Shown here: positions 1 through 56,710 of the stretch, piece by piece
Position numbering within the stretch: position 1 is the first letter of the stretch
Layout of the letters: the number at the start of each line of letters is the position of its first letter
Source of the DNA: Heliocidaris erythrogramma
Taxonomy: Eukaryota; Echinodermata; Echinoidea; Camarodonta; Echinometridae
Assembly (NCBI GenBank): GCA_025617745.1
Contig: CM046864.1
Location: 930,001-994,000 of the forward strand
DNA length: 64,000 bases
Direction of reading: 5' to 3'
The notes under the pieces: model-generated
Told to the model about the DNA's origin: nothing
What the model saw: the letters and a program-made list of their open reading frames with translations, nothing else
The model's database searches: none
Translations under genes and position numbers: made by a program

Positions 1-234
1 TATGAGAAGCATTAGATATTTCAAGTCCACTTCCCATCAATTTCTGAGATAGTCTTACTTTGAAAAGTGCCTATGAGAGGAACCATAATTGCATTGTTTC
101 TGATGCTACTTCATCTAGAGGTAGAATTAGAAAAATAAAAATCGAATGTGTAAGTTATAAAAATGACTTGTAGTTCATTAATCTAACTTTATGAATCTTT
201 TTTGTTGTTACCTACCTCGACCTCATGTTTTTAG

Positions 235-3200
235 ATATAGACGAATGTATGACTGGAGATGACGATTGTGACGCTAATGCTACATGTAGCAACAGCGATG
301 GGAGTTTTGCATGCGCCTGTAATCCTGGATACACTGGTAACGGGACCACTTGTACAGGTAAGCACGTCCTGGTTAATGCTGGTATACAAAGTTTGATTAT
401 CAATCATTAATATGAGAAGCATTAGATATTTCAAGCCCACTTCCCATCAATTTCTGAGATAGTCTTACCTTGAAAAGTAGCTATGCAGGAACCATAATTG
501 CAATGTTTCTAATTCGAAGTCATATAGCGTTCGAATTAGAAAAAACGAGTGTATAACTTATAAAAATGACTTGTAGTTTTCTTTATCCAATTTTATGAAT
601 CTTTTTTTGTTGTTACCTACCTCGACCTCATGTTTTTAGATATAGACGAATGTATGACTGGAGATGACGATTGTGACGCTAATGCTACATGTAGCAACAG
701 CGCTGGTAGTTTTGCATGCGCCTGTAATCCTGGATACACTGGTAACGGGACCACTTGTACAGGTAAGCACTTCCTGGTTAATGCTGGTATACAAAGTTTG
801 ATTATCAATCATTAATATGAGAAGCATTAGATATTTCAAGCCCACTTCCCATTAATTTCTGAGATAGTCTTAACTTGAAAAGTAGCTATGCAGGACCCAT
901 AATTGCATTGTATCTGATGCTACTTCATCCAGAGTTAGAATTAGAAAAATCGAGAGTAGAACTTATAGAATGACTTGTAGTTTTCTTTATCCAACTTTAT
1001 TATTTATTTTTTTTTTGTTGTTACCTACCTCTACCTCATGTTTGTAGATATAGACGAATGTATGACTGGAGATGACGATTGTGACGCTAATGCTACATGT
1101 AGCAACAGCGCTGGTAGTTTTGCATGCGCCTGTAATCCTGGATACACTGGTAACGGGACCACTTGTACAGGTAAGCACTTCCTGGTTAATGCTGGTATAC
1201 AAAGTTTGATTATCAATCATTAATATGTGAAGCATTAGATATTTCAATCCCACTTCCCATCAATTTCTGAGATAGTCTTACCTTGAAAAGTACCTATGAG
1301 AGGAACCATAATTGCATTGTTTCTGATGCTACTTCATCTAGAGGTAGAATTAGAAAAATAAAAATCGAATGTGTAAGTTATAAAAATGACCATTAGTTCA
1401 TTAATCTAACTTCATGAATCTTTTTTGTTGTTACCTACCTCTACCTCATGTTTTTAGATATAGACGAATGTATGACTGGAGATGACGATTGTGACGCTAA
1501 TGCTACATGTAGCAACAGCGATGGGAGTTTTGCATGCGCCTGTAATCCTGGATACACTGGTAACGGGACCACTTGTACAGGTAAGCACGTCCTGGTTAAT
1601 GCTGGTATACAAAGTTTGATTATCAATCATTAATATGTGAAGCATTAGATATTTCAATCCCACTTCCCATCAATTTCTGAGATAGTCTTACCTTGAAAAG
1701 TACCTATGAGAGGAACCATAATTGCATTGTTTCTGATGCTACTTCATCTAGAGGTAGAATTAGAAAAATAAAAATCGAATGTGTAAGTTATAAAAATGAC
1801 CATTAGTTCATTAATCTAACTTCATGAATCTTTTTTGTTGTTACCTACCTCTACCTCATGTTTTTAGATATAGACGAATGTATGACTGGAGATGACGATT
1901 GTGACGCTAATGCTACATGTAGCAACAGCGATGGGAGTTTTGCATGCGCCTGTAATCCTGGATACACTGGTAACGGGACCACTTGTACAGGTAAGCACGT
2001 CCTGGTTAATGCTGGTATACAAAGTTTGATTATCAATCATTAATATGAGAAGCATTAGATATTTCAAGCCCACTTCCCATCAATTTCTGAGATAGTCTTA
2101 CCTTGAAAAGTAGCTATGCAGGAACCATAATTGCAATGTTTCTAATTCGAAGTCATATAGCGTTCGAATTAGAAAAAAAACGAGTGTATAACTTATAAAA
2201 ATGACTTGTAGTTTTCTTTATCCAATTTTATGAATATTTTTTTGTTGTTACCTACCTCGACCTCATGTTTTTAGATATAGACGAATGTATGACTGGAGAT
2301 GACGATTGTGACGCTAATGCTACATGTAGCAACAGCGCTGGTAGTTTTGCATGCGCCTGTAATCCTGGATACACTGGTAACGGGACCACTTGTACAGGTA
2401 AGCACTTCCTGGTTAATGCTGGTATACAAAGTTTGATTATCAATCATTAATATGAGAAGCATTAGATATTTCAAGTCCACTTCCCATCAATTTCTGAGAT
2501 AGTCTTACTTTGAAAAGTGCCTATGAGAGGAACCATAATTGCATTGTTTCTGATGCTACTTCATCTAGAGGTAGAATTAGAAAAATAAAAATCGAATGTG
2601 TAAGTTATAAAAATGACTTGTAGTTCATTAATCTAACTTTATGAATCTTTTTTGGTTGTTACCTACCTCTACCTCATGTTTTTAGATATAGACGAATGTA
2701 TGACTGGAGATGACGATTGTGACGCTAATGCTACATGTAGCAACAGCGATGGGAGTTTTGCATGCGCCTGTAATCCTGGATACACTGGTAACGGGACCAC
2801 TTGTACAGGTAAGCACGTCCTGGTTAATGCTGGTATACAAAGTTTGATTATCAATCATTAATATGAGAAGCATTAGATATTTCAAGCCCACTTCCCATCA
2901 ATTTCTGAGATAGTCTTACCTTGAAAAGTAGCTATGCAGGAACCATAATTGCAATGTTTCTAATTCGAAGTCATATAGCGTTCGAATTAGAAAAAACGAG
3001 TGTATAACTTATAAAAATGACTTGTAGTTTTCTTTATCCAATTTTATGAATCTTTTTTTGTTGTTACCTACCTCGACCTCATGTTTTTAGATATAGACGA
3101 ATGTATGACTGGAGATGACGATTGTGACGCTAATGCTACATGTAGCAACAGCGCTGGTAGTTTTGCATGCGCCTGTAATCCTGGATACACTGGTAACGGG

Positions 3201-14877: not shown

Positions 14878-14896
14878 AACGGGACCACTTGTACAG
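14878..14896 (+). pseudogene. Exon stub: last 19 nt of a cbEGF exon
   Basis: The distance between exons 36 and 37 is 651 bp instead of about 405. The extra partial unit holds intron sequence joined directly to the final 19 nt of an exon (AACGGGACCACTTGTACAG) followed by a normal GTAAGC donor. About 104 nt of exon plus the T-run and acceptor are missing. Without an acceptor the stub should not be spliced in. It is a different deletion from the one that made the 18 exonless units downstream. Confidence 0.85.
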
Positions 14897-28587: not shown

Positions 28588-28588
<1 letters not shown>

Positions 28589-28620
<32 letters not shown>

Positions 28621-35800: not shown

Positions 35801-36857
35801 ATGCTACTTCATCCAGAGTTAGGATTAGAAAAATCGAGAGTATAACTTTTGAAAATTACTTGTAGTTTTCTTTCTCCAATTTTATGAATCGTTTTTTGTT
35901 GTTACCTACCTCTACTTCATGTTTGTAGATATAGACGAATGTATGACTGGAGATGACGATTGTGACGCTAATGCTACATGTAGCAACAGCGATGGGAGTT
36001 TTGCATGCTCCTGTAATCCTGGATACACTGGTAACGGGACCACTTGTACAGGTAAGCACTTCCTGGTTAATGCTGGTACACAAAGTTTGATTATCAACCA
36101 TTAATATGAGAAGCATTAGATATTTCAAGCCCACTTCCCATCAGTTTCTGAGATAGTTTTTCCTTGAAAAGTAGCTATGCAGGAACCATAATTGCATTGT
36201 TTCTGATGCTACTTCATCCAGAGTTAGAATTAGAAGAATCTAGTGTAGAACTTATGAAAATGACTTGTAGTTTTCTTTACCCAATTTTATTTTTTTATTT
36301 TTTTGTTACCTACCTCTACTTCATGTTTGTAGATATAGACGAATGCATGACTGGAGATGACGATTGTGACGCTAATGCTACATGTAGCAACAGCGATGGG
36401 AGTTTTGCATGCGCCTGTAATCCTGGATACACTGGTAACGGGACCACTTGTACAGGTAAGCACTTCCTGGTTAATGCTGGTATACAAAGCTTGATTATCA
36501 ATCATTTATACGAGAAGCATTAGATATTTCAAGTCCACTTCCCATCAATTTCTGAGATAGTCTTACTTTGAAAAGTAGCTATGCAGGAACCATAATTGCA
36601 TTGTTTCTGATGGTACTTCATCCACAGTTAGAATTAGAAAAATCGAGTGTAGAACTTATAGAATGACTTGTAGTTTTCTTTATCCAATTTTATTATTTAT
36701 TTTTTTTTTACCTACCTCTACTTCATGTTTGTAGATATAGACGAATGTATGACTGGAGATGACGATTGTGACGCTAATGCTACATGTAGCAACAGCGATG
36801 GTAGTTTTGCATGCGCCTGCAATCCTGGATACACTGGTAACGGGACCACTTGTACAG
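32846..36857 (+). CDS. cbEGF exons 75-84
   Basis: Ten exons start at 32846, 33248, 33653, 34057, 34457, 34858, 35524, 35929, 36333 and 36735. Exons 77-80 repeat 69-72 at an offset of 3,483-3,484 bp. An exonless unit precedes exon 81. Exon 75 has Glu for Gly8 (MTEDDDC). Exons 76 and 80 are DINEC, exon 81 is DVDEC with Asn for Asp11 (DDNC), exon 82 is a CSCN type. All carry Asp22. The introns before exons 76 and 80 are of the second hairpin type. Confidence 0.9.
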
Positions 36858-36977
36858 GTAAGCTCTTACTTGTTAATGCTGGTATACAAAGTTTGATTAT
36901 CAATCATTTATATGAGAAGCATTAGATATTTCAAGCCCACTTCCCATCAATTTCTGAGATAGTCTTACATTGAAAAG

Positions 36978-37338
36978 TAATAATAATAATAATAATAATA
37001 ATATTCAGCTTTTATATAGCGCCTAATACATCGGAGATGTCTCTAAGCGCTTTACAGATATATTATTACCCTGGTCATCGGATTCTGGCATGCCCGCACA
37101 CAATGTATGCACATTCTCCGCTCCCTGGGGAGTATTCCAGCCAGTCGCCTGTTAAGCGCACACATGCTAAGCAAAGGACATTAACTTTCGCCATCCTACC
37201 GGGTACCCATTTAACACCTGGGTGGAGAGTGGCAAATGTAGATTAACGTCTTGCCAAAGGACGCTAGTGCTGCGGTGGGATTCGAACCCCGGACCTCGTG
37301 GTTCACAGTCCAGGGACTTATCCACTGATCCACAACAC
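36978..37338 (-). mobile_element. tRNA-derived SINE, copy 2
   Basis: Same element, orientation and junctions as the copy at 28589: TTACATTGAAAAG before the (TAA)n tail, and CACAACAC then CTATGAGAGGTACCG after the head. It lies between exons 84 and 85. It belongs to the subtype with GCTTTTATATAGCGCC. The shared junctions show it spread by duplication of the host units, not by a new insertion. Confidence 0.87.
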
Positions 37339-37500
37339 CTATGAGAGGTACCGTAATTGCATTGATTCTGATGCTACTTCATCCAGAGTTAGAATTAGAA
37401 AAATCGAGAGTATAACTTAGGAAAATTACTTGTAGTTTTCTTTCTCCAATTTTATGAATCTTTTTTTTTTTTGTTACCTACCTTTACTTCATGTTTGTAG

Positions 37501-39686
37501 ATATAGACGAATGTATGACTGGAGATGACGATTGTGACGCTAATGCTACATGTAGCAACAGCGATGGGAGTTTTGCATGCTCCTGTAATCCTGGATACAC
37601 TGGTAACGGGACCACTTGTACAGGTAAGCACTTCCTGGTTAATGCTGGTACACAAAGTTTGATTATCAACCATTAATATGAGAAGCATTAGATATTTCAA
37701 GCCCACTTCCCATCAGTTTCTGAGATAGGTTTCCTTGAAAAGTAGCTATCCAGGAACCATAATTGCATTGTTTCTGATGCTACTTCATCCAGAGTTAGAA
37801 TTAGAAGAATCTAGTGTAGAACTTACGAAAATGACTTGTAGTTTTTTTTACCCAATTTTATTATTTTTTTTTTTTGTTACCTACCTCTACTTCATGTTTG
37901 TAGATATAGACGAATGCATGACTGGAGATGACGATTGTGACGCTAATGCTACATGTAGCAACAGCGATGGGAGTTTTGCATGCGCCTGTAATCCTGGATA
38001 CACTGGTAACGGGACCACTTGTACAGGTAAGCTCTTACTGGTTAATGCTGGTATACAAAGCTTGATTATCAATCATTTATACGAGAAGCATTAGATATTT
38101 CAAGTCCACTTCCCATCAATTTCTGAGATAGTCTTACTTTGAAAAGTAGCTATGCAGGAACCATAATTGCATTGTTTCTGATGGTACTTCATCCACAGTT
38201 AGAATTAGAAAAATCGAGTGTAGAACTTATAGAATGACTTGTAGTTTTCTTTATCCAATTTTATTATTTTTTTTTTGTTACCTACCTCTACTTCATGTCT
38301 GTAGATATAGACGAATGTATGACTGGAGATGACGATTGTGACGCTAATGCTACATGTAGCAACAGCGATGGTAGTTTTGCATGCGCCTGTAATCCTGGAT
38401 ACACTGGTAATGGGACCACTTGTACAGGTAAGCTCTTACTGGTTAATGCTGGTATACAAAGTTTGATTATCAATCATTAATATGAGAAGCATTATATATT
38501 TCAAGCCCACTTCCCATCAGTTTCTGTGATAGTTTTACCTTGAAAAGTACCTATGAGAGGAACCATAATTGCATTGATTCTGATGCTACTTCATCCAGAT
38601 GTAGAATTAGAAAAAAAAATCGAATGTATAAGTTGTAAAAATGACTTGTAGTTGATTAATCTAACTTCCTGGTTAAGCACTTCCTGGTTGATGCTGGTAT
38701 ACAAAGTCTGATTATCAATCATTTATATGAGAAGCGTTAGATGATTCAAGTCCACTTCCCATCGATTTCTGAGATAGTCTTACTTTGAAAAGTAGCTATA
38801 CAGGAACCATAATTGCATTGTTTCTGATGCTACTTCATCCAGAGTTAGAATTAGAAGAATCTAGTGCAGAACTTATGAAAATGACTTGTAGTTTTCTTTA
38901 TCCATTTTTTTTTTTTTTTTTTTGTTACCTACCTCTACTTCATGTTTGTAGATGTAGACGAATGTGTGACTGGAGATGACGATTGTGACGCTAATGCTAC
39001 TTGTAGCAACAGCGATGGTAGTTTTGCATGCGCCTGTAATCCTGGATACATTGGTAACGGGACCACTTGTACAGGTAAGCTCTTACTGGTTAATGCTGGT
39101 ATACAAAGCTTGATTATCAGTCATTTATACGAGACGCATTAGATATTTCAAGTCCACTTCCCATCAATTTCTGAGATAGTCTTACTTTGAAAAGTAGCTA
39201 TGCAGGAACCATAATTGCATTGTTTCTGATGCTACTTCATCCAGAGTTAGGATTAGAAAAATCGAGAGTATAACTTTTGAAAATGACTTGTAGTTTTCTT
39301 TCTCCAATTTTATGAATCGTTTTTTGTTGTTACCTACCTCTACTTCATGTTTGTAGATATAGACGAATGTCTTGATTATCAGTCATTTATACGAGAAGCA
39401 TTAGATATTTCAAGTCCACTTCCCATCAATTTCTGAGATAGTTTTACCTTGAAAAGTACCTATGAGAGGAACCATAATTGCATTGATTCTGATGCTACTT
39501 CATCCAGAGTTAGAATTAGAAGAATCTAGTGTAGAACTTATGAAAATGACTTGTAGTTTGTAGATATAGACGAATGTATTACTGGAGATGACGATTGTGA
39601 CGCTAATGCTACATGTAGCAACAGCGATGGTAGTTTTGCATGCGCCTGTAATCCTGGATACACTGGTAACGGGACCACTTGTACAG
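37501..39686 (+). CDS. cbEGF exons 85-89
   Basis: Exons start at 37501, 37904, 38305, 38952 and 39564. Exon 85 is a CSCN type directly after the SINE. Exon 88 is the most changed here: DVDEC, Val for Met6, and Ile for Thr34 (GYIGNG). Exon 89 has Ile for Met6 and almost no pyrimidine tract: GACTTGTAGTTTG runs straight into its acceptor TAG, so its recognition by the spliceosome is doubtful. An exonless unit precedes exon 88. Confidence 0.85.
39357..39370 (+). pseudogene. Exon stub: first 14 nt of a cbEGF exon
   Basis: After a normal acceptor the exon reads ATATAGACGAATGT and then jumps to CTTGATTATCAGTC, which belongs to the intron about 50 nt downstream of the usual donor. The remaining 109 nt of exon and the donor are deleted. 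The following exon (39564) lacks its usual T-run, so the two lesions may come from one unequal exchange. Confidence 0.85.
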
Positions 39687-39968
39687 GTAAGCTCTAACTG
39701 GTGAATGCTGGTATACAAAGCTTGATTATCAGTCATTTATACGAGAAGCATTATATATTTCAAGTCCACTTTCCATCAATTTCTGAGATAGTCTTACTTT
39801 GAAAAGTAGCTATGCAGGAACCATAATTGCATTATTTCTGATGCTACTTCATCCAGAGTTAGAAGGGGAAAAATCGAGGGTATAAGTTATGAAATTTACT
39901 TGTAGTTTTCTTTCTCCAATTTCATGAATCGTTTTTTGTTGTTACCTAACTCTGCCTCATGCTTGTAG

Positions 39969-42900
39969 ATATAAACGAATGTATGACTGGAGATGACGAT
40001 TGTGAAGATAATGCTACATGTAGCAACAGCGCTGGTAGTTTTGCATGCGCCTGTAATCCTGGATACACTGGTAACGGGACCACTTGTACAGGTAAGCACT
40101 TCCTGGTTAATGCTGGTATACAAAGTTTGATTATCAATCATTAATATGAGAAGCATTAGATATTTCAAACCCACTTCCCATCAGTTTCTGAGATAATTTT
40201 ACCTTGAAAAGTAGCTATGCAGGAACCATAATGCATTATTTCTGATGCTACTTCATCCAGAGTTAGAATTAGAAGAATCTAGTGTAGAACTTATGAAAAT
40301 GACTTGTAGTTTTCTTTACCCAATTTTATTATTTTTTTTTTGTTACCTACCTCTACTTCATGTTTGTAGATATAGACGAATGTATGACTGGAGATGACGA
40401 TTGTGACGCTAATGCTACATGTAGCAACAGCGATGGTAGTTTTGCATGCGCCTGTAATCCTGGATACACTGGTAACGGGACCACTTGTACAGGTAAGCTC
40501 TTACTGGTTAATGCTGGTATACAAAGCTTGATTATCGGTCATTTATACGAGAAGCATTAGATATTTCAAGTCCACTTCCCATCAATTTCTGAGATAGTCT
40601 TACTTTGAAAAGTAGCTATGCAGGAACCATAATTGCATTGTTTCTGATGCTACTTCATCCAGAGTTAGAATTAGAAAAATCTAGTGTAGAACTTATGAAA
40701 ATGACTTGTAGTTTTCTTTACCCAATTTTTTTTTTTTTTTTTTTTTTGTTACCTACCTCTACTTCATGTTTGTAGATATAGACGAATGTATGACTGGAGA
40801 TGACGATTGTGACGCTAATGCTACATGTAGCAACAGGGATGGTAGTTTTGTATGCGCCTGTAATCCTGGATACACTGGTAACGGGACCACTTGTACAGGT
40901 AAGCTCTTACTGGTTAATGCTGGTATACAAAGCTTGATTATCAGTCATTTATACGAGAAGCATTAGATATTTCAAGTCCACTTCCCATCAATTTCTGAGA
41001 TAGTTTTACCTTGAAAAGTACCTATGAGAGGAACCATAATTGCATTGATTCTGATGCTACTTCATCGAGAAGTAGAATTAGAAAAATCGAGTGTAGAACT
41101 CATGAAAATGACTTGTAGTTTTCTTTACCCAATTTTATTATTTTTTTTTTTGTTACCTACCTCTACTTCATGTTTGTAGATATAGACGAATGTATGACTG
41201 GAGATGACGATTGTGACGCTAATGCTACATGTAGCAACATCGATGGTAGTTTTGCATGCGCCTGTAATCCTGGATACACTGGTAACGGGACCACTTGTAC
41301 AGGTAAGCTCTTACTGGTTAATGCTGGTATACAAAGCTTGATTATCAGTCATTTATACGAGAAGCGTTAGATATTTCAAGTCCACTTCCCATCAATTTCT
41401 GTGATAGTTTTACCTTGAAAAGTAGCTATGCAGGAGCCATAAATGCATTATTTCTGATGCTACTTCATCCAGAGTTAGAAGGGGAAAAATCGAGGGTATA
41501 AGTTATGAAATTTACTTGTAGTTTTCTTTCTCCAATTTCATGAATCGTTTTTTGTTGTTACCTAACTCTGCCTCATGCTTGTAGATATAAACGAATGTAT
41601 GACTGGAGATGACGATTGTGAAGATAATGCTACATGTAGCAACAGCGCTGGTAGTTTTGCATGCGCCTGTAATCCTGGATACACTGGTAACGGGACCACT
41701 TGTACAGGTAAGCACTTCCTGGTTAATGCTGGTATACAAAGTTTGATTATCAATCATTAATATAAGAAGCATTAGATATTTCAAACCCACTTCCCATCAG
41801 TTTCTGAGATAGTTTTACCTTGAAAAGTAGCTATGCAGGAACCATAAATGCATTATTTCTGATGCTACTTCATCCAGAGTTAGAATTAGAAGAATCTAGT
41901 GTAGAACTTATGAAAATGACTTGTAGTTTTCTTTACCCAATTTTATTATTTTTTTTTGTTACCTACCTCTACTTCATGTTTGTAGATATAGACGAATGTA
42001 TGACTGGAGATGACGATTGTGACGCTAATGCTACATGTAGCAACAGCGATGGTAGTTTTGCATGCGCCTGTAATCCTGGATACACTGGTAACGGGACCAC
42101 TTGTACAGGTAAGCTCTTACTGGTTAATGCTGGTATACAAAGCTTGATTATCAGTCATTTATACGAGAAGCATTAGATATTTCAAGTCCACTTCCCATCA
42201 ATTTCTGAGATAGTCTTACTTTGAAAAGTAGCTATGCAGGAACCATAATTGCATTGTTTCTGATGCTACTTCATCCAGAGTTAGAATTAGAAGAATCTAG
42301 TGTAGAACTTATGAAAATGACTTGTAGTTTTCTTTACCCAATTTTTTTTTTTTTTTTTTTTTGTTACCTACCTCTACTTCATGTTTGTAGATATAGACGA
42401 ATGTATGACTGGAGATGACGATTGTGACGCTAATGCTACATGTAGCAACAGGGATGGTAGTTTTGTATGCGCCTGTAATCCTGGATACACTGGTAACGGG
42501 ACCACTTGTACAGGTAAGCTCTTACTGGTTAATGCTGGTATACAAAGCTTGATTATCAGTCATTTATACGAGAAGCATTAGATATTTCAAGTCCACTTCC
42601 CATCAATTTCTGAGATAGTTTTACCTTGAAAAGTACCTATGAGAGGAACCATAATTGCATTGATTCTGATGCTACTTCATCCAGAAGTAGAATTAGAAAA
42701 ATCGAGTGTAGAACTCATGAAAATGACTTGTAGTTTTCTTTACCCAATTTTATTATTTTTTTTTTGTTACCTACCTCTACTTCATGTTTGTAGATATAGA
42801 CGAATGTATGACTGGAGATGACGATTGTGACGCTAATGCTACATGTAGCAACATCGATGGTAGTTTTGCATGCGCCTGTAATCCTGGATACACTGGTAAC

Positions 42901-45021
42901 GGGACCACTTGTACAGGTAAGCTCTTACTGGTTAATGCTGGTATACAAAGCTTGATTATCAGTCATTTATACGAGAAGCGTTAGATATTTCAAGTCCACT
43001 TCCCATCAATTTCTGTGATAGTTTTACCTTGAAAAGTACCTATGAGAGGAACCATAATTGCATTGATTCTGATGCTACTTCATCCAGATGTAGAATTAGA
43101 AAAAAAATCGAATGTATAAGTTATAAAAATGACTTGTAGTTGATTAATCTAACTTCCTGGTTAAGCACGTCCTGGTTAATGCTGGTATACAAAGTCTGAT
43201 TATCAATCATTTATATGAGAAGCGTTAGATGATTCAAGTCCACTTCCCATCGATTTCTGAGATAGTCTTACTTTGAAAAGTAGCTATGCAGGAACCATAA
43301 TTGCATTGTTTCTGATGCTATTTCATCCAGAGTTAGAATTAGAAGAATCTAGTGCAAAACCTATGAAAATGACTTGTAGTTTTCTTTACCCAATTTTATT
43401 ATTTTTTTTTTGTTACCTACCTCTACTTCATGTTTGTAGATATAGACGAATGTATGACTGGAGATGACGATTGTGACGCTAATGCTACATGTAGCAACAG
43501 CGATGGTAGTTTTGCATGCGCCTGTAATCCTGGATACACTGGTAACGGGACCACTTGTACAGGTAAGCTCTTACTGGTTAATGCTGGTATACAAAGCTTG
43601 ATTATCAGTCATTTATACGAGAAGCATTAGATATTTCAAGTCCACTTCCCATCAATTTCTGAGATAGTTTTACCTTGAAAAGTAGCTATGCAGGAACCAT
43701 AATTGCATTGTTTCTGATGCTACTTCATCCAGAGTTAGAATTAGAAGAATCTAGTGTAGAACTTATGAAAATGACTTGTAGTTTTCTTTACCCAATTTTT
43801 TTTTTTTTTTTTTTTTTGTTACCTACCTCTACTTCATGTTTGTAGATATAGACGAATGTATGACTGGGGATGACGATTGTGACGCTAATGCTACATGTAG
43901 CAACAGCGATGGGAGTTTTGCATGCGCCTGTAATCCTGGATACACTGGTAACGGGACCACTTGTACAGGTAAGCTCTTACTGGTTAATGCTGGTATACAA
44001 AGCTTGATTATCAGTCATTTATACGAGAAGCATTAGATATTTCAAGTCCACTTCCCATCAATTTCTGAGATAGTTTTACCTTGAAAAGTACCTATGAGAG
44101 GAACCATAATTGCATTGATTCTGATGCTACTTCATCCAGAAGTAGAATTAGAAAAATCGAGTGTAGAACTCATGAAAATGACTTGTAGTTTTCTCTACCC
44201 AATTTTATTATTTTTTTTTTGTTACCTACCTCTACTTCATGTTTGTAGATATAGACGAATGTATGACTGGAGATGACGATTGTGACGCTAATGCTACATG
44301 TAGCAACATCGATGGTAGTTTTGCATGCGCCTGTAATCCTGGATACACTGGTAACGGGACCACTTGTACAGGTAAGCTCTTACTGGTTAATGCTGGTATA
44401 CAAAGCTTGATTATCAGTCATTTATACGAGAAGCGTTAGATATTTCAAGTCCACTTCCCATCAATTTCTGTGATAGTTTTACCTTGAAAAGTACGTATGA
44501 GAGGAACCATAATTGCATTGATTCTGATGCTACTTCATCCAGATGTAGAATTAGAAAAAAAAATCGAATGTATAAGTTATAAAAATGACTTGTAGTTGAT
44601 TAATCTAACTTCCTGGTTAAGCACTTCCTGGTTAATGCTGGTATACAAAGTCTGATTATCAATCATTTATATGAGAAGCGTTAGATGATTCAAGTCCACT
44701 TCCCATCGATTTCTGAGATAGTCTTACTTTGAAAAGTAGCTATGCAGGAACCATAATTGCATTGTTTCTGATGCTATTTCATCCAGAGTTAGAATTGGAA
44801 GAATCTAGTGCAAAACTTATGAAAATGACTTGTAGTTTACTTTATCCGATTTTATTAATTTTTTTTTTTTGTTACCTACCTCTACTTAATGTTTGTAGAT
44901 GTAGACGAATGTATGACTGGAGATGACGATTGTGACGCTAATGCTACATGTAGCAACAGCGATGGGAGTTTTGCATGCGCCTGTAATCCTGGATACACTG
45001 GTAACGGGACCACTTGTACAG
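39969..45021 (+). CDS. cbEGF exons 90-101
   Basis: Twelve exons start at 39969, 40370, 40776, 41180, 41585, 41986, 42391, 42794, 43440, 43846, 44249 and 44899. Exons 90-93 and 94-97 are a four-exon block repeated at 1,614-1,616 bp; 99-100 repeat 96-97 at 1,455 bp. Exons 90 and 94 are DINEC with Glu13-Asp14 (CEDNATC) and Ala22. Exons 92 and 96 have Arg21 and Val26. Exons 93, 97 and 100 have Ile21 (AACATCGATGG). Exon 101 is DVDEC. Exonless units precede exons 98 and 101. Confidence 0.9.
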
Positions 45022-45548
45022 GTAAGCTCTTACTGGTTAATGCTGGTATACAAAGTTTTATTATCAATCATTAATATGAGAAGCATTAGATATTTCAAGC
45101 CCATTTCCCATCAGTTTCTGAGATAGTTTTACCTTGAAAAGTACCTATGAGAGGAACCATTATTGCATTGATTCTGATGCTACTTCATCCAGATGTAGAA
45201 TTAGAAAAAAAAATCGAATGTATAAGTTATAAAAATGACTTGTAGTTGATTAATCTAACTTCCTGGTTAAGCAATTCCTGGTTAATGCTAGTATACAAAG
45301 TCTGATTATCAATCATTTATATGAGAAGCGTTAAATGATTCAAGTCCACTTCCCATCGATTTCTGAGATAGTCTTACTTTGAAAAGTAGCTATGCAGGAA
45401 CCATAATTGCATTGTTTCTGATGCTACTTCATCCAGAGTTAGAAGGGGAAAAATCGAGGGTATAAGTTATGAAATTTACTTGTAGTTTTCTTTCTCCAAT
45501 TTCATGAATCGTTTTTTGTTGTTACCTACCTCTGCCTCATGCTTGTAG

Positions 45549-45670
45549 ATATAAACGAATGTATGACTAGAATGACGATTGTGACGATAATGCTACATGT
45601 AGCAACAGCGCTGGTAGTTTTGCATGCGCCTGTAATCCTGGATACACTGGTAACGGGACCACTTGTACAG
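45549..45670 (+). pseudogene. Frameshifted cbEGF exon (number 102)
   Basis: The exon is 122 nt instead of 123. Where sisters read ACTGGAGATGACG this copy reads ACTAGAATGACG, a net loss of one base after Met6-Thr7. The frame after that no longer encodes EGF residues, and five of the six cysteines are lost. Acceptor and donor (GTAAGC) look normal, so if included it would also throw every later exon out of frame; if skipped, the frame is restored because neighbouring exons are symmetric. Its nearest relatives are the DINEC/Ala22 exons at 51364 and 53590. An assembly or sequencing error is possible. Confidence 0.85.
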
Positions 45671-45951
45671 GTAAGCACTTCCTGGTTAATGCTGGTATAC
45701 AAAGTTTGATTATCAATCATTAATATGAGAAGCATTAGATATTTCAAACCCACTTCCCATCAGTTTCTGAGATAGTTTTACCTTGAAAAGTAGCTATGCA
45801 GGAACCATAAATGCATTGTTTCTGATGCTACTTCATCCAGAGTTAGAATTAGAAGAATCTAGTGTAGAACTTATGAAAATGACTTGTAGTTTTCTTTACC
45901 CAATTTTCTTTATTTATTTTTTTGTTACCTACCTCTACTTCATGTTTGTAG

Positions 45952-48742
45952 ATATAGACGAATGCATGACTGGAGATGACGATTGTGACGCTAATGCTAC
46001 ATGTAGCAACAGCGATGGTAGTTTTGCATGCGCCTGTAATCCTGGATACACTGGTAACGGGACCACTTGTACAGGTAAGCTCTTACTGGTTAATGCTGGT
46101 ATACAAAGCTTGATTATCAATCATTTATACGAGAAGCTTTAGATATTTCAAGTCCACTTCCCATCAATTTCTGAGATAGTCTTACTTTGAAAAGTAGCTA
46201 TGCAGGAACCATAATTGCATTGTTTCTGATGGTACATCATCCACAGTTAGAATTAGAAAAATCGAGTGTAGAACTTATAGAATGACTTGTAGTTTTCTTT
46301 ATCCAATTTTGTTATTTTTTTTGTTGTTACCTACCTCTATTTCATGTTTGTAGATGTAGACGAATGTATGACTGGAGATGACGATTGTGACGCTAATGCT
46401 ACATGTAGCAACAGCGATGGTAGTTTTGCATGCGCCTGTAATCCTGGATACACTGGTAACGGGACCACTTGTACAGGTAAGCTCTTACTGGTTAATGCTG
46501 GTATACAAAGTTTGATTATCAATCATTAATATGAGAAGCATTAGATATTTCAAGCCCACTTCCCATCAGTTTCTGTGATAGTTTTACCTTGAAAAGTACC
46601 TATGAGAGGAACCATAATTGCATTGATTCTGATGGTACTTCATCCACAGTTAGAATTAGAAAAATCGAGTGTAGAACTTATGAAAATGACTTGTAGTTTT
46701 CTTTACCCAATTTTATTAATTTTTTTGTTTTTGTTACGTACCTCTACTTCATGTTTGTAGATATAGACGAATGTATGACTGGAGATGACGATTGTGACGC
46801 TAATGCTACATGTAGCAACAGCGATGGCAGTTTTGCATGCGCCTGTAATCCTGGATACACTGGTAACGAGACCACTTGTACAGGTAAGCTCTTACTGGTT
46901 AATGCTGGTATACAAAGTTTCATTATCAATCATTAATATGAGAAGCAGTAGATATTTCAAGCCCACTTCCCATCAGTTTCTGTGATAGTTTTACCTTGAA
47001 AAGTACCTATGAGAGGAACCATAATTGCATTGATTCTGATGCTACTTCATCCAGATGTAGAATTAGAAAAAAAAATCGAATGTATAAGTTATAAAAATGA
47101 CTTGTAGTTGATTAATCTAACTTCCTGGTTAAAGCACTTCCTGGTTAATGCTGGTATACAAAGTCTGATTATCAATCATTTATATGAGAAGCGTTAGATG
47201 ATTTCAAGTCCACTTCCCATCGATTTCTGAGATAGTCTTACTTTTAAAAGTAGCTATGCAGGAACCATAATTGCATTGTTTCTGATGCTATTTCATCCAG
47301 AGTTAGAATTAGAAGAATCTAGTGCAAAACTTATGAAAATGACTTGTAGTTTACTTTATCCGATTTTATTAATTTTTTTTTTGTTACCTACCTCTACTTC
47401 ATGTTTGTAGATGTAGACGAATGTATGACTGGAGATGACGATTGTGACGCTAATGCTACATGTAGCAACAGCGATGGTAGTTTTGCATGCGCCTGTAATC
47501 CTGGATACACTGGTAACGGGACCACTTGTACAGGTAAACTCTTACTGGTTAATGCTGGTATACAAAGCTTGATTATCAGTCATTTATACGAGAAGCATTA
47601 GACATTTCAAGTCCACTTACCATCAATTTCTGAGATAGTCTTACTTTGAAAAGTAGCTATGCAGGAACCATAATTGCATTGTTTCTGATGCTACTTCATC
47701 CAGAGTTAGAATTAGAAAAATCGAGAGTATAACTTATGAAAATTACTTGTAGTTTTCTTTCTCCAATTTTATGAATCGTTTTTTGTTGTTACCTACCTCT
47801 ACTTCATGTTTGTAGATATAGACGAATGTATGACTGGAGATGACGATTGTGACGCTAATGCTACATGTAGCAACAGCGATGGGAGTTTTGCATGCTCCTG
47901 TAATCCTGGATACACTGGTAACGGGACCACTTGTACAGGTAAGCTCTTACTGGTTAATGCTGGTACACAAAATTTGATTATCAATCATTTATATAAGAAG
48001 CATTAGATATTTCAAGCCCACTTCCCATCAGTTTCTGAGATAGTCTTACTTTGAAAAGTAGCTATGCAGGAACCATAATTGCATTGTTTCTGATGCTACT
48101 TCATCCAGAGTTAGAATTAGAAAAATCGAGAGTAGAACTTATGAAAATGACTTGTAGTTTTCTTTACCCAATTTTTTTTTTTTTTTTTTTGGTTACCTAC
48201 CTCTACTTCATGTTTGTAGATATAGACGAATGCATGACTGGAGATGACGATTGTGACGCTAATGCTACATGTAGCAACAGCTATGGGAGTTTTGCATGCG
48301 CCTGTAATCCTGGATACACTGGTAACGGGACCACTTGTACAGGTAAGCTCTTACTGGTTAATGCTGGTATACAAAGCTTGATTATCAATCATTTATACGA
48401 GAAGCATTAGATATTTCAAGTCCCCTTCCCATCAATTTCTGAGATAGTCTTACTTTGAAAAGTAGCTATGCAGGAACCATAATTGCATTGTTTCTGATGG
48501 TACTTCATCCACAGTTAAAATTAGAAAAATCGAGTGTAGAACTTATAGAATGACTTGTAGTTTTCTTTATCCAATTTTATTATTTTTTTTTGTTACCTAC
48601 CTCTACTTCATGTTTGTAGATATAGACGAATGTATGACTGGAGATGACGATTGTGACGCTAATGCTACATGTAGCAACAGCGATGGTAGTTTTGCATGCG
48701 CCTGTAATCCTGGATACACTGGTAACGGGACCACTTGTACAG
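45952..48742 (+). CDS. cbEGF exons 103-109
   Basis: Seven exons start at 45952, 46354, 46761, 47411, 47816, 48220 and 48620. Exons 104 and 106 read DVDEC. Exon 105 has Glu for Gly37 (NETTC), which keeps the N-x-T sequon. Exon 106 has donor GTAAAC. Exon 107 is a CSCN type. Exon 108 has Tyr for Asp22 (SNSYGSF), the only Tyr seen at this place. An exonless unit precedes exon 106. Confidence 0.9.
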
Positions 48743-48862
48743 GTAAGCTCTTACTTGTTAATGCTGGTATATAAAGGTTGATTATCAATCATTTATATGA
48801 GAAGCATTATATATTTCAAGCCCACTTCCCATCAATTTCTGAGATAGTCTTACATTGAAAAG

Positions 48863-49224
48863 TAATAATAATAATAATTTATAATAATAATCAGCTTTTA
48901 TATAGCGCCTAATACATCGGAGATGTCTCTAAGCGCTTTAGAGATATATTATTACCCTGGTCATCGGATTCTGGCATGCCCGCACACAATGTATGCACAT
49001 TCTCCGCTCCCTGGGGAGTATTCCAGCCAGTCGCCTGTTAAGCGCACACATGCTAAGCAAAGGACATTAACTTTCGCCATCCTACCGGGTACCCATTTAA
49101 CACCTGGGTGGAGAGTGGCAAATGTAGATTAACGTCTTGCCAAAGGACGCTAGTGCTGCGGTGGGATTCGAACCCCGGACCTCGTGGTTCACAGTCCAGG
49201 GACTTATCCACTGATCCACAACAC
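48863..49224 (-). mobile_element. tRNA-derived SINE, copy 3
   Basis: Same element and junctions as the other copies, between exons 109 and 110. Its (TAA)n tail is interrupted (ATAATAATTTATAATAATAATCAG). The unit after it carries a CSCN exon, as after copy 2. Confidence 0.87.
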
Positions 49225-49384
49225 CTATGAGAGGTACCGTAATTGCATTGATTCTGATGCTACTTCATCCAGAGATAGAATTAGAAAAATCGAGAGTATA
49301 ACTTATGAAAATTACTTGTAGTTTTCTTTCTCCAATTTTATGAATCGTTTTTTGTTGTTACCTACCTCTACTTCATGTTTGTAG

Positions 49385-51893
49385 ATATAGACGAATGTAT
49401 GACTGGAGATGACGATTGTGACGCTAATGCTACATGTAGCAACAGCGATGGGAGTTTTGCATGCTCCTGTAATCCTGGATACACTGGTAACGGGACCACT
49501 TGTACAGGTAAGCACTTCCTGGTTAATGCTGGTACACAAAGTTTGATTATCAACCATTAATATGAGAAGCATTAGATATTTCAAGCCCACTTCCCATCAG
49601 TTTCTGAGATAGTTTTTCCTTGAAAAGTAGCTATGCAGGAACCATAATTGCATTGTTTCTGATGCTACTTGATCCAGAAATAGGATTAGAAGAATCTAGT
49701 GTAGAACTTATGAAAATGACTTGTAGTTTTCTTTACCCAATTTTATTTATTTATTTTTTTGTTACCTACCTCTACTTCATGTTTGTAGATATAGACGAAT
49801 GCATGACTGGAGATGACGATTGTGACGCTAATGCTACATGTAGCAACAGCGATGGGAGTTTTGCATGCGCCTGTAATCCTGGATACACTGGTAACGGGAC
49901 CACTTGTACAGGTAAGCTCTTACTTGTTATTGCTGGTATACAAAGCTTGATTATCAATCATTTATACGAGAAGCATTAGATATTTCAAGTCCACTTCCCA
50001 TCAATTTCTGAGATAGTCTTACTTTGAAAAGTAGCTATGCAGGAACCATAATTGCATTGTTTCTGATGGTACTTCATCCACAGTTAGAATTAGAAAAATC
50101 GAGTGTAGAACTTATAGAATGACTTGTAGTTTTCTTTCTCCAATTTTATTAATTTTTTTGTTTTTTGTTACCTACCTCTACTTGATGTTTGTAGATATAG
50201 ACGAATGTATGACTGGAGATGACGATTGTGACGCTAATGCTACATGTAGCAACAGCGATGGTAGTTTTGCATGCGCCTGTAATCCTGGATACACTGGTAA
50301 CGGGACCACTTGTACAGGTAAGCTCTTACTTGTTAATGCTGGTATACAAAGGTTGATTATCAATCATTTATATGAGAAGCATTAGATATTTCAAGCCCAC
50401 TTCCCATCAATTTCTGAGATAGTCTTACATTGAAAAGTAATAATAATAATAATAATAATAATATTCAGCTTTTATATAGCGCCTAATACATTGGAGATGT
50501 CTCTAAGCGCTTTACAGATATATTATTATCCTGGTCATCGGATTCTGGCATGCTCGCACACAATGTATGCACATTCTCCGCTCCCTGGGGAGTATTCCAG
50601 CCAGTCGCCTGTTAAGCGCACACATGCTAAGCAAAGGACATTAACTTTCGCCATCCTACCGGGTACCCATTTAACACCTGGGTGGAGAGTGGCAAATGTA
50701 GATTAACGTCTTGCCAAAGGACGCTAGTGCTGCGGTGGGATTCGAACCCCGGACCTCGTGGTTCACAGTCCAGGGATTTATCCACTGATCCACAACACCT
50801 ATGAGAGGTACCGTAATTGCATTGATTCTGATGCTACTTCATCCAGAGTTAGAATTAGAAAAATCGAGAGTATAACTCATGAAAATGACTTGTAGTTTTC
50901 TTTATCCAATTTTATGAATCTTTTTTTGTTGTTACCTACCTCTGCCTCATGTTTGTAGATATAAACGAATGTATGACTGGAGATGACGATTGTGATGCTA
51001 ATGCTACATGTAGCAACAGCGCTGGGAGTTTTGCATGCGCCTGTAATCCTGGATACACTGGTAACGGGACCACCTGCACCGGTAAGCACTTCCTGGTTAA
51101 TGCTGGTATACAAAGTTTTATTATCAATCATTAATATGAGAAGCATTAGATATTTCAAGTCCACTTCCCATCAATTTCTGAGATAGTCTTACTTTGAAAA
51201 GTAGCTATCCAGGAACCATAATTGCATTGTTTCTGATGCTACTTCATCCAGAGTTAGAAGGGGAAAAATCGAGGGTATAAGTTATAAAATTTACTTGTAG
51301 TTTTCTTTCTCCAATTTTATGAATCGTTTTTTGTTGTTACCTACCTCTGCCTCATGCTTGTAGATATAAACGAATGTATGACCGGAGATGACGATTGTGA
51401 CGATAATGCTACATGTAGCAACAGCGCTGGTAGTTTTGCATGCGCCTGTAATCCTGGATACACTGGTAACGGGACCACTTGTACAGGTAAGCACTTCCTG
51501 GTTAATGCTGGTATACAAAGTTTGATTATCAATCATTAATATGAGAAGCATTAGATATTTCAAACCCACTTCCCATCAGTTTCTGAGATAGTTTTACCTT
51601 GAAAAGTAGCTATGCAGGAACCATAATTGCATTGTTTCTGATGCTACTTCATCCAGAGTTAGAATTAGAAGAATCTAGTGTAGAACTTATGAAAATGACT
51701 TGTAGTTTTCTTTACCCAATTTTATTATTATTATTTTTTTTTTTTACCTACCTCTACTTTATGTTTGTAGATATAGACGAATGTATGACTGGAGATGACG
51801 ATTGTGACGCTAATGCTACATGTAGCAACAGGGATGGTAGTTTTGCATGCGCCTGTAATCCTGGATACACTGGTAACGGGACCACTTGTACAG
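49385..51893 (+). CDS. cbEGF exons 110-115 (includes the first copy of the 2,226-bp block)
   Basis: Six exons start at 49385, 49789, 50195, 50959, 51364 and 51771. Exon 110 is a CSCN type. Exon 113 is DINEC/Ala22 and ends ACCTGCACCG|GTAAGC, with CCG instead of CAG before the donor. Exon 114 is DINEC with Asp14 (CDDNATC). Exon 115 has Arg21. Exons 112-115, with the SINE after exon 112 and the exonless unit after exon 115, make up the block that is repeated next. Confidence 0.9.
50438..50798 (-). mobile_element. tRNA-derived SINE, copy 4
   Basis: Same element and junctions as the others, between exons 112 and 113. Distinguished from copies 1-3 by CATTGGAG, GCTCGCAC and CAGGGATTTATCC, shared only with copy 5. 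The exon after it is of the DINEC/Ala22 type, as after copy 1. Confidence 0.87.
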
Positions 51894-52420
51894 GTAAGCT
51901 CTTACTGGTTAATGCTGGTATACAAAGCTTGATTATCAGTCATTTATACGAGAAGCATTAGATATTTCAAGTCCACTTCCCATCAATTTCTGAGATAGTT
52001 TTACCTTGAAAAGTACCTATGAGAGGAACCATAATTGCATTGATTCTGATGCTACTTCATCCAGAAGTAGAATTAGAAAAAAAAATCGAATGTATAAGTT
52101 ATAAAAATGACTTGTAGTTGATTAAATAACTTCCTGGTTAAGCACTTCCTGGTTAATGCTGGTATACAAAGTCTGATTATCAATCATTTATGTGAGAAGC
52201 ATTAGATATTTCAAGTCCACTTCCCATCAATTTCTGAGATAGTCTTACTTTGAAAAGTAGCTATGCAGGAACCATAATTGCATTGTTTCTGATGGTACTT
52301 CATCCACAGTTAGAATTAGAAAAATCGAGTGTAGAACTTATAGAATGACTTGTAGTTTTCTTTCTCCAATTTTATTAATTTTTTTGTTTTTTGTTACCTA
52401 CCTCTACTTGATGTTTGTAG

Positions 52421-54119
52421 ATATAGACGAATGTATGACTGGAGATGACGATTGTGACGCTAATGCTACATGTAGCAACAGCGATGGTAGTTTTGCATGC
52501 GCCTGTAATCCTGGATACACTGGTAACGGGACCACTTGTACAGGTAAGCTCTTACTTGTTAATGCTGGTATACAAAGGTTGATTATCAATCATTTATATG
52601 AGAAGCATTAGATATTTCAAGCCCACTTCCCATCAATTTCTGAGATAGTCTTACATTGAAAAGTAATAATAATAATAATAATAATAATATTCAGCTTTTA
52701 TATAGCGCCTAATACATTGGAGATGTCTCTAAGCGCTTTACAGATATATTATTATCCTGGTCATCGGATTCTGGCATGCTCGCACACAATGTATGCACAT
52801 TCTCCGCTCCCTGGGGAGTATTCCAGCCAGTCGCCTGTTAAGCGCACACATGCTAAGCAAAGGACATTAACTTTCGCCATCCTACCGGGTACCCATTTAA
52901 CACCTGGGTGGAGAGTGGCAAATGTAGATTAACGTCTTGCCAAAGGACGCTAGTGCTGCGGTGGGATTCGAACCCCGGACCTCGTGGTTCACAGTCCAGG
53001 GATTTATCCACTGATCCACAACACCTATGAGAGGTACCGTAATTGCATTGATTCTGATGCTACTTCATCCAGAGTTAGAATTAGAAAAATCGAGAGTATA
53101 ACTCATGAAAATGACTTGTAGTTTTCTTTATCCAATTTTATGAATCTTTTTTTGTTGTTACCTACCTCTGCCTCATGTTTGTAGATATAAACGAATGTAT
53201 GACTGGAGATGACGATTGTGATGCTAATGCTACATGTAGCAACAGCGCTGGGAGTTTTGCATGCGCCTGTAATCCTGGATACACTGGTAACGGGACCACC
53301 TGCACCGGTAAGCACTTCCTGGTTAATGCTGGTATACAAAGTTTTATTATCAATCATTAATATGAGAAGCATTAGATATTTCAAGTCCACTTCCCATCAA
53401 TTTCTGAGATAGTCTTACTTTGAAAAGTAGCTATCCAGGAACCATAATTGCATTGTTTCTGATGCTACTTCATCCAGAGTTAGAAGGGGAAAAATCGAGG
53501 GTATAAGTTATAAAATTTACTTGTAGTTTTCTTTCTCCAATTTTATGAATCGTTTTTTGTTGTTACCTACCTCTGCCTCATGCTTGTAGATATAAACGAA
53601 TGTATGACCGGAGATGACGATTGTGACGATAATGCTACATGTAGCAACAGCGCTGGTAGTTTTGCATGCGCCTGTAATCCTGGATACACTGGTAACGGGA
53701 CCACTTGTACAGGTAAGCACTTCCTGGTTAATGCTGGTATACAAAGTTTGATTATCAATCATTAATATGAGAAGCATTAGATATTTCAAACCCACTTCCC
53801 ATCAGTTTCTGAGATAGTTTTACCTTGAAAAGTAGCTATGCAGGAACCATAATTGCATTGTTTCTGATGCTACTTCATCCAGAGTTAGAATTAGAAGAAT
53901 CTAGTGTAGAACTTATGAAAATGACTTGTAGTTTTCTTTACCCAATTTTATTATTATTATTTTTTTTTTTTACCTACCTCTACTTTATGTTTGTAGATAT
54001 AGACGAATGTATGACTGGAGATGACGATTGTGACGCTAATGCTACATGTAGCAACAGGGATGGTAGTTTTGCATGCGCCTGTAATCCTGGATACACTGGT
54101 AACGGGACCACTTGTACAG
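52421..54119 (+). CDS. cbEGF exons 116-119 (second copy of the 2,226-bp block)
   Basis: Exons start at 52421, 53185, 53590 and 53997, each exactly 2,226 bp after exons 112-115. The SINE between the first two and the exonless unit after the last are also repeated at the same offset. By eye the copies appear identical through exon, intron and SINE, including the shared GATTAAATAAC in the exonless unit. Confidence 0.9.
52664..53024 (-). mobile_element. tRNA-derived SINE, copy 5
   Basis: Exact-looking duplicate of the copy at 50438, placed 2,226 bp downstream as part of the block duplication. Confidence 0.88.
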
Positions 54120-54642
54120 GTAAGCTCTTACTGGTTAATGCTGGTATACAAAGCTTGATTATCAGTCATTTATACGAGAAGCATTAGATATTTCAAGTCC
54201 ACTTCCCATCAATTTCTGAGATAGTTTTACCTTGAAAAGTACCTATGAGAGGAACCATAATTGCATTGATTCTGATGCTACTTCATCCAGAAGTAGAATT
54301 AGAAAAAAAAATCGAATGTATAAGTTATAAAAATGACTTGTAGTTGATTAAATAACTTCCTGGTTAAGCACTTCCTGGTTAATGCTGGTATACAAAGTCT
54401 GATTATCAATCATTTATGTGAGAAGCATTAGATATTTCAAGTCCACTTCCCATCAATTTCTGAGATAGTCTTACTTTGAAAAGTAGCTATGCAGGAACCA
54501 TAATTGCATTGTTTCTGATGGTACTTCATCCAGAGTTAGAATTAGAAGAATCTAGTGTAGAACTTATGAAAATGACTTGTAGTTTTCTTTACCCATTTTT
54601 TTTTTTTTTTTTTTGTTACCTACCTCTACTTCATGTTTGTAG

Positions 54643-56471
54643 ATATAGACGAATGTATGACTGGAGATGACGATTGTGACGCTAATGCTACATGTAGCAA
54701 CAGGGATGGTAGTTTTGCATGCGCCTGTAATCCTGGATACACTGGTAACGGGACCACTTGTACAGGTAAGCTCTTACTGGTTAATGCTGGTATACAAAGC
54801 TTGATTATCAGTCATTTATACGAGAAGCATTAGATATTTCAAGTCCACTTCCCATCAATTTCTGAGATAGTTTTACCTTGAAAAGTACCTATGAGAGGAA
54901 CCATAATTGCATTGATTCTGATGCTACTTCATCCAGAAGTAGAATTAGGAAAAAAAAATCGAATGTATAAGTTATAAAAATGACTTGTAGTTGATTAATC
55001 TAACTTCCTGGTTAAGCACTTCCTGGTTAATGCTGGTATACAAAGTCTGATTATCAATCATTTATGTGAGAAGCATTAGATATTTCAAGTCCACTTCCCA
55101 TCAATTTCTGAGATAGTCTTACTTTGAAAAGTAGCTATGCAGGACCAATATTTGCAATGTTTCTGATGCTACTTCATCCAGAGTTAGAATTAGAAGAATC
55201 GAGTGCATAACTTATAAAAATGACTTGTAGTTCATTAGTCTATTTTTATGAATCTTTTCTTGTTGTTACCTACCTCTACTTCATGTTTGTAGATATAGAC
55301 GAATGTATGACTGGAGATGACGATTGTGACGCTAATGCTACATGTAGCAACAGCGCTGGTAGTTTTGCATGCGCCTGTAATCCTGGATACACTGGTAACG
55401 GGATCACTTGTACAGGTAAGCACTTCATGGTTAATGCTGGTATACAAAGCTTGATTATCAATCATTAATATGAGAAGCATTAGATATTTCAAGCCCACTT
55501 CCCATCAGTTTCTGTGATAGTTTTACCTTGAAAAGTACCTATGAGAGGAACCATAATTGCATTGATTCTGATGCTACTTCATCCAGATGTAGAATTAGAA
55601 AAAGAAAATCGAATGTATAAGTTATAAAAATTACTTGTAGTTGATTAATCTAACTTCCTGGTTAAGCGCTTCCTGGTTAATGCTGGTATACAAAGTCTGA
55701 TTATCAATCATTTATATGAGAAGCATTAGATATTTCAAGTCCACTTCCCATCAATTTCTGAGATAGTCTTACTTTGAAAAGTAGCTATGCAGGAACCATA
55801 ATTGCATTGTTTCTGATGCTACTTCATCCAGAGTTAGAAGGGGAAAAATCGAGTGTAGAACTTATGAAATTTACTTGTAGTTTTCTTTCTCCAATTTTAT
55901 GAATCGTTTTTTGTTGTTACCTACCTCTGCCTCATGCTTGTAGATATAAACGAATGTATGACTGGAGATGACGATTGTGACGCTAATGCTACATGTAGCA
56001 ACAGCGCTGGTAGTTTTGCATGCGCCTGTAATCCTGGATACACTGGTAACGGGACCACTTGTACAGGTAAGCACTTCCTGGTTAATGCTGGTATACAAAA
56101 TTTGATTATCAATCATTTATATAAGAAGCATTAGATATTTGAAGGCCACTCCCCATCAATTTCTGATATAGTCTTACTTTGAAAAGTAGCTATGCAGGAA
56201 CCATAATTGCATTGTTTCTGATGCTACTTCATCCAGAGTTAGAATTAGAAAAATCGAGAGTATACCTTATGAAAATGACTTGTAGTTTTCTTTATCCAAC
56301 TTTATGAATCTTTTTTTGTTGTTACCTACCTCTACCTCATGTTTTTAGATATAGACGAATGTATGACTGGAGATGACGATTGTGACGCTAATGCTACATG
56401 TAGCAACAGCGCTGGGAGTTTTGCATGCGCCTGTAATCCTGGATACACTGGTAACGGGACCACTTGTACAG
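54643..56471 (+). CDS. cbEGF exons 120-123 (end of the array)
   Basis: Exons start at 54643, 55293, 55944 and 56349. Exonless units precede exons 121 and 122, and follow exon 119. Exon 120 has Arg21. Exon 121 has Ile for Thr38 (NGITC), so its second sequon is lost; it is the only intact exon where I see this. Exon 122 is DINEC/Ala22. Exon 123 (56349-56471) is an ordinary Ala22 domain with a GTAAGC donor and is the last cbEGF exon in the window. Array-like intron sequence continues to about 56,710 and then stops. Confidence 0.9.
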
Positions 56472-56710
56472 GTAAGCACTTCCTGGTTAATGCTGGTATA
56501 TAAAGTTTGATAATCAATCATTAACATGAGAAGCATTAGATATTTCAAACCCACTTCCCATCAATTTCTAAGATAGTCTTACCTTGAAAAGTACCTATGA
56601 GAGGAACCATAATTGCATTGTTTCTTATGCTACTTCATCCAGAGTTAGAATTAGAGAAATCGAGTGTATAACTTATGAAAATAACTTGATGAATCTTTTT
56701 TTTTTGTTTT

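Follow-up and report, generated by a model that had tools for sequence, protein, structure and literature searches.

Tandem arrays of near-identical cbEGF exons in the genome of Heliocidaris erythrogramma

The exon array in the window

Most of a 64,000-nucleotide stretch of the Heliocidaris erythrogramma genome (contig CM046864.1, here C12, positions 930,001-994,000; referred to as the window) is occupied by exon-intron units that encode one type of cbEGF domain, and the question raised by this locus is whether such an array is a gene or a satellite that carries coding sequence. The genome searched comprised 1.064 Gb in 26 contigs. A BLASTN search of the window with one exon as query revealed 124 plus-strand matches, which correspond to 122 intact 123-nt exons, one 122-nt exon and one 19-nt remnant, so that the 123 exon-bearing units with 122 intact exons of the original prediction were counted exactly. 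All 123 exon-bearing units are preceded by AG and followed by GT, the exons are in phase 1 at both ends (with a split codon G/AT encoding D), and an internal stop was found in none of the 122 intact exons. Owing to this symmetry, units can be added or removed without disturbing the reading frame. Tandem Repeats Finder (TRF) reported array A as tandem arrays with a period of about 401-410, and chance is therefore not an issue. The spacing of the units is mostly 400-411 nt, some introns measure 525-650 nt, and the window contains no N bases. The following features were located in window coordinates:

1..56690, plus strand: portion of array A inside the window, truncated at the left edge, with 123 exon-bearing units
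235..357, plus strand: leftmost complete cbEGF exon of the window (123 nt, D type, phase 1 at both ends)
14878..14896, plus strand: 19-nt 3' exon remnant at a recombination junction, donor present, no acceptor
18549..55943 (approximate), plus strand: right part of the array with recurring exon-less partial units
45549..45670, plus strand: exon with a 1-nt deletion, 122 nt
49968..54532, plus strand: exact 2,339-bp repeat with copies at 49968 and 52194, offset 2,226
56349..56471, plus strand: final cbEGF exon of array A
57438..57582, plus strand: possible half HYR domain exon with a phase-1 donor (Pfam score of 21.0 bits for a cut-off of 21.7 bits)

After the last exon, intron-like sequence continues to about 56,690. 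Nineteen exon-less partial units lie between exons, where they lengthen the introns, and a twentieth is located behind the last exon; the approximate bounds of the right part given above start at the donor of the exon that precedes the first exon-less unit and extend to the exon that follows the last one. Visual comparison showed a common junction in 18 of the 19, the remaining one being located at about 14.9 kb, and this common junction suggests a single exon-loss event that was subsequently multiplied with the array. The exact 2,339-bp repeat is a recent duplication within array A, and the next long exact repeat in the window amounts to 1,163 bp (at 1017/9183).

Extent of array A, its flanks and its relatives

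Array A had been predicted to be cut by the left edge of the window and, in agreement with this, exon matches continue leftward to 909.2 kb and then to 897.7 kb of C12. With the domain as tblastn query (E up to 1e-4), 187 exon matches were obtained in C12:830,001-1,024,000. Of these, 176 are at or right of 909 kb (909.2-986.5 kb), 167 of them right of 912.3 kb, and 11 further matches (897.7-906.1 kb) lie beyond interruptions of 5.2 and 3.3 kb; the same query gave no EGF matches in the 830-897 kb region of C12. The assembly has an N gap at C12:896,820-897,319, and a 5.4-kb stretch with two inverted exons and one partial exon is present twice, at about 900.9-906.3 kb and at about 907.3-912.7 kb (98.8% identity). 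The left end of array A may be misassembled, and for this reason the statistics on array A rest on units right of 912.3 kb.

The flanks were scanned against Pfam in three frames on the strand of the array, and the more distant regions C12:830-890 kb and 1,004-1,024 kb were searched with EGF and HYR peptides. On the 3' side (window 56.5-64 kb and C12:994-1004 kb) no cellular domain was detected, only transposon domains and sub-threshold Pfam matches, and on the left (C12:890.0-896.8 and 897.8-902.9 kb) only sub-threshold Pfam matches were obtained. Neither a start exon nor a signal peptide nor a C-terminal domain of array A was found in the Pfam-scanned flanks. The possible half HYR exon, which was not recovered in the three-frame Pfam scan, has an AT repeat directly before it and no acceptor was seen; this exon could be a relic or could belong to the array A gene as a downstream exon.

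A second array is present on the same contig:

C12:4,729,365-4,838,757, minus strand: array B, 179 exons (span covered except for 3 kb)

In array B, 177 of the 179 exons are flanked by AG/GT splice sites, two exons are frameshifted, and 168 encode one identical peptide, which is 68% identical to the peptide of array A. The first 174 exons extend up to 4,814,602 and five more follow after an interruption of 22.5 kb. A diverged cbEGF exon occurs on the same strand about 8.4 kb past the 3' end of array B, and a Pfam scan of the 4 kb beyond its 5' end found nothing. Diverged relatives were encountered in at least four more places among the matches listed (C12:8.65-8.76 Mb, C12:10.17-10.21 Mb, C13:7.58-7.76 Mb and C11:45.96 Mb), and exons were read at three of these four. 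HYR exon arrays are also present in the genome of Heliocidaris erythrogramma.

When exons were compared at the DNA level, the nearest neighbour belonged to the same array for all 166 clean exons of array A and for all 177 of array B, as well as for 12 of 12 exons in array C and 4 of 4 in array D, and for only 2 of 6 in array E (on C13). Arrays A and B have therefore been homogenised separately, and array E has not. Judged from these relationships, the exon pattern of A and B is as in concerted evolution. The consensus sequences of A and B differ with a dN of 0.20 and a dS of 0.69, and a comparison of B with the 12 exons at C12:8.65 Mb gave dN values of 0.033-0.101 and dS values of 0.216-0.331.

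Uniformity of the units and selection on the encoded protein

The exons of array A had been thought to encode all the same 41-residue cbEGF domain, and domain and intron to be almost uniform. A single domain type is indeed encoded throughout, but the domains are not all identical, as 22 distinct peptides are encoded by the 122 intact exons (mostly due to a D/A difference at one site) and 33 distinct DNA sequences occur among the 123 exons. Similarly, near-identity holds for the exons, whereas the introns are less uniform. Over the 97 regular units of the window (spacing about 385-430; units with long introns were left out), a diversity of 0.091 was determined for introns versus 0.017 for exons, with values of 0.13-0.17 for 20-column blocks in the middle of the intron. 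For array A as a whole, diversity was calculated from 141 units, after 6 of 147 from the inverted left-end region, which had inflated the diversity, had been dropped. Mean identity among regular units amounts to 0.935 in A (141 units) and 0.944 in B and falls slowly with distance, reaching 0.921 and 0.934, respectively, at lags of more than 80 units, as is expected of local unequal exchange or conversion. Most regular units have a sequence of their own (118 distinct sequences among 141 in A, 95 among 114 in B).

Selection on the protein is clear in array B. Among its 114 regular units, the diversity at fourfold sites (0.0589; 19 sites) is similar to that of the intron (0.0750; 287 sites; P 0.6), and at zerofold sites it drops to 0.0009 (82 sites; P 5e-5 when compared to fourfold sites). 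Taking alleles as independent events, here and for array A below, 17 silent and 8 replacement alleles (two of the latter being one double change) were counted over 177 exons, although only 24% would be expected to be silent (P 4e-6). The 8 alleles that occur at least three times are silent without exception. These numbers point to strong selection on the domain encoded by B. For array A (141 units), zerofold diversity (0.0120) is lower than intron diversity (0.0874; permutation P 5e-5), and fourfold diversity (0.0347; 16 sites) showed no significant difference from zerofold diversity (P 0.17). The 34 alleles detected in 166 exons of A consist of 13 silent and 21 replacement alleles (23% silent expected; P 0.03), corresponding to an omega of about 0.48. 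All 34 preserve the cysteines (loss expected for 12.5%; P 0.01), and no stop arises from any of them. Of the alleles found in at least three window exons of A, 7 of 13 are replacements, including the D/A site. In array A, selection on the protein thus appears modest and the indication for it is weaker.

The original prediction had placed the locus closer to a coding satellite than to an ordinary multi-exon gene. With a mean identity of 0.935 and exact repeats of up to 2,339 bp, array A is in fact a long tandem exon-intron array that is homogenised within itself. As an alternative to a gene, however, the satellite does not agree with the constraint on the encoded protein, strong in B and modest in A, nor with AG/GT splice sites at 123 of 123 exons. 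Array A is more aptly described as a gene, or a portion of one, that expands like a satellite.

Predicted product, alternative explanations and comparison with known systems

Two joined domains matched the Pfam profiles EGF_CA (E 3.2e-23; 82.1 bits, above the curated cut-off of 27 that defines membership) and EGF_3 (E 8.4e-24), and the nearest solved sequences are EGF pairs from NELL2, uromodulin and Notch (best 6pog, E 1e-33). Simulated splicing of the 122 intact exons yields 5,002 amino acids without a stop, with a mass of 499 kDa and a pI of 4.05. This product contains 732 Cys residues and 243 N-x-S/T sites, is composed of 16.0% Asp, 14.6% Cys, 14.6% Thr and 0.14% Arg, and is devoid of Lys, His, Trp and Gln. 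Each of the 122 domains has six cysteines and, with motif definitions that derive partly from general knowledge, each starts with D-[IV]-[DN]-E-C and carries the hydroxylation motif C-x-[DN]-x4-[FY]-x-C. The motif C-x4-[ST]-C, which we take to be an O-fucose site, is likewise present in 122 of 122 domains. A single residue separates the last cysteine of one domain from the calcium motif of the next, presumably the spacing of rigid fibrillin-type pairs of about 3 nm per domain, and on this basis the domains in the window would add up to a rod about one third of a micrometre long. The calcium-binding consensus of cbEGF domains is as given in an excerpt of PMC3306419. When all 123 exons were joined, a first stop appeared at residue 4183, shortly after the frameshifted exon at 45549-45670, which may be a sequencing error, may be skipped by splicing or may truncate the protein.

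We consider it probable that the locus is a protein-coding tandem exon array which has grown by unequal exchange, is subject to concerted evolution and encodes a long cbEGF rod. According to this model, one 123-nt phase 1-1 exon would account for one cbEGF domain, and the exon together with its intron of roughly 280 nt would have been multiplied via unequal exchange and kept alike via concerted evolution. The product would be a secreted or surface-exposed rod of near-identical, very acidic and disulfide-rich cbEGF domains, the length of which would be set by copy number. From the sequence we infer one continuous transcript, secretion, a rod shape and a structural role in the extracellular matrix or surface coat. 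A more far-reaching version, which we put forward tentatively, is that one chromosome carries at least two independent coding arrays with well over 150 near-identical one-domain exons each, that each would encode a cbEGF polypeptide of about 7,000 or more residues, the one from A being essentially without Lys, His and Trp, and that copy number would set the length while selection would keep the domains alike.

It is somewhat unlikely that several separate genes or alternative transcripts each draw on a part of the array, in place of one giant transcript. Symmetric exons would permit the splicing of any subset, the left end contains insertions of 3-5 kb, and splicing might skip the frameshifted exon; however, between 912.3 and 986.5 kb neighbouring exons are all on one strand and never more than 1 kb apart, and unsystematic inspection revealed neither a start exon nor an end exon inside the array. 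We regard it as unlikely that array A is dead or dying, that is, a former gene with relaxed constraint which still expands as satellite DNA and gives no full-length product. The frameshifted exon, the 19-nt remnant, the 20 exon-less partial units, several common replacement alleles in A and the gene ends not found in the Pfam-scanned flanks would be in agreement with such a decay. On the other hand, the splice sites are intact at 123 of 123 exons, the 34 alleles include neither a stop nor a cysteine loss, exon diversity is far below intron diversity, array B is clearly constrained, and the exon-less units sit inside introns, where they need not harm the message.

That the copy number is an artefact of the assembly, in which misjoined or duplicated reads inflated a smaller array, seems quite improbable. 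The N gap, the 5.4-kb repeat with the same odd inverted exons at 98.8% identity and the exact 2.3-kb repeat inside array A could be read in this way, but most units are individually distinct in both arrays and the window is free of N bases. Finally, exon uniformity due to the copying back of spliced RNA or to exon-focused conversion, instead of selection, was retained as a minor and very improbable rival only, as the depletion of silent alleles in the left part of A (39 silent sites carry 2 alleles and 275 intron sites carry 64; Fisher P 0.006) was not seen in B, where fourfold sites are as diverse as introns, and as the intron start is also depleted in the left part of A, so that a recent spread from few founder units suffices and no exon-specific copying is needed.

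If this more far-reaching version, with length set by copy number, is true, the arrays would represent a genetic ruler or cable written in DNA repeats. With silent sites that drift like introns and a protein that is fixed in B, arrays A and B make it possible to separate DNA homogenisation from protein selection in a single gene. The predicted product would be an extreme natural protein, a uniform, acidic and disulfide-rich rod of interest as a material, and would test how cells transcribe, splice, fold and export such a protein. The array would probably be overlooked or fragmented in annotation that is automatic or based on short reads.

A published description of a comparable array was not found in the literature searched, the coverage of which excludes most subscription journals. 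In spider silk genes, internal repeats are homogenised by concerted evolution; unlike silk motifs, the repeats of array A would encode folded, disulfide-rich domains. Hyalin of sea urchins is an HYR-rich extracellular coat protein. The fibropellins of sea urchins contain up to 21 EGF domains (excerpt of PMC10336842). Array A resembles these EGF-rich or HYR-rich coat proteins of marine invertebrates, its link to HYR being putative. Fibrillins possess tandem cbEGF runs with TB and hybrid domains between them (PMC3306419, in the part available); array A shares the tandem cbEGF domains with calcium-binding and hydroxylation consensus, and no Pfam match to TB or hybrid domains was obtained in the scanned part of its flanks. 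Octovafibrin from octopus egg tethers is described, in the excerpt of PMC10336842, with 29 EGF domains, none of them calcium binding by PROSITE, and with lectin ends. Its long tandem EGF run, which makes up the body of a fibre-forming protein, is comparable to array A, which differs in having more than 120 domains of the cbEGF type.

Drosophila Dumpy, according to an excerpt of PMC2930355, has more than 300 EGF repeats, most of them with DPY modules in between, is encoded by 78 coding exons and carries ZP and transmembrane ends. A further block of this protein consists of about 40 repeats of 102 residues each, which are nearly identical and are reported to evolve in concert. Array A likewise predicts a giant extracellular protein of EGF repeats; unlike in Dumpy, there is one exon per domain, the domains are near-identical and, in the simulated splice, each of the 122 exons encodes one cbEGF domain with nothing in between. 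The human LPA kringle IV type 2 VNTR has units of 5.6 kb in 1-40 copies per allele (PMC11462820, in excerpt). Both systems have a coding tandem unit of exon(s) and intron in which protein length depends on copy number, and in array A, as read in one assembly, the 123-nt exon with phase 1 on both sides stays in frame at any copy number. In contrast to the 5.6-kb kringle units described there, the unit of array A has about 0.4 kb and one exon, and 123 such units occur in the window and more outside. Among the comparators considered here, those with intron-bearing coding repeats usually have larger units or fewer copies. Intron-bearing coding repeats, giant EGF proteins and EGF fibres are already known. 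Array A differs from them in a combination of features: each domain is encoded by a single symmetric exon, the window alone contains more than 120 near-identical copies of it, and two or more arrays of this type occur in one genome.

Variants and possible rearrangement at the left of array A

Within the left part (C12:909-945 kb; window 1-14,650) of array A, the plus-strand tandem array of cbEGF exon and intron units, fewer variants were found at silent exon sites than in mid-intron, and the intron start was likewise depleted when compared to mid-intron. This depletion, at silent sites and at the intron start, may reflect recent founders or focused conversion. Also, two stretches of 5.4 kb (C12 ~900.9-906.3 kb and 907.3-912.7 kb) are near-duplicates, each containing two inverted array exons, and may represent a genuine inversion and duplication or else an assembly artefact.

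Sequence to the right of array A

The following features were identified in the window:

57280-57415: imperfect palindrome, 85% identity to its own reverse complement, foldback- or MITE-like
59243-59643: imperfect palindrome, 66% identity to its own reverse complement, foldback- or MITE-like
61765-62502: tandem repeat, 170 bp x 4.3 copies, 94% matches
~62,500-64,000: LTR-retrotransposon-like sequence, continuing at C12:994,001

The first palindrome is flanked by AT repeats, and the 170-bp repeat is followed by the retrotransposon-like stretch. In the sequence adjoining the right edge of the window, into which this stretch continues, integrase, RNase H and reverse transcriptase domains are spread over more than one frame.

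Exon arrays elsewhere in the genome

At C12:10,181,131-10,205,031, evenly spaced matches with equal scores were obtained to the unit of array B, the minus-strand sister cbEGF array; this locus is perhaps a third homogenised array.

Among the matches listed (150 of 1,996 candidates), HYR (hyalin-type) exons with near-equal scores and a regular spacing of ~1.0-1.1 kb were encountered at C20:34,695,201-34,720,907 (at least 24 matches), C5:26.118-26.135 Mb and C14:24.96-24.98 Mb. Exon arrays, as at these HYR loci, may be a wider habit of the Heliocidaris erythrogramma genome.
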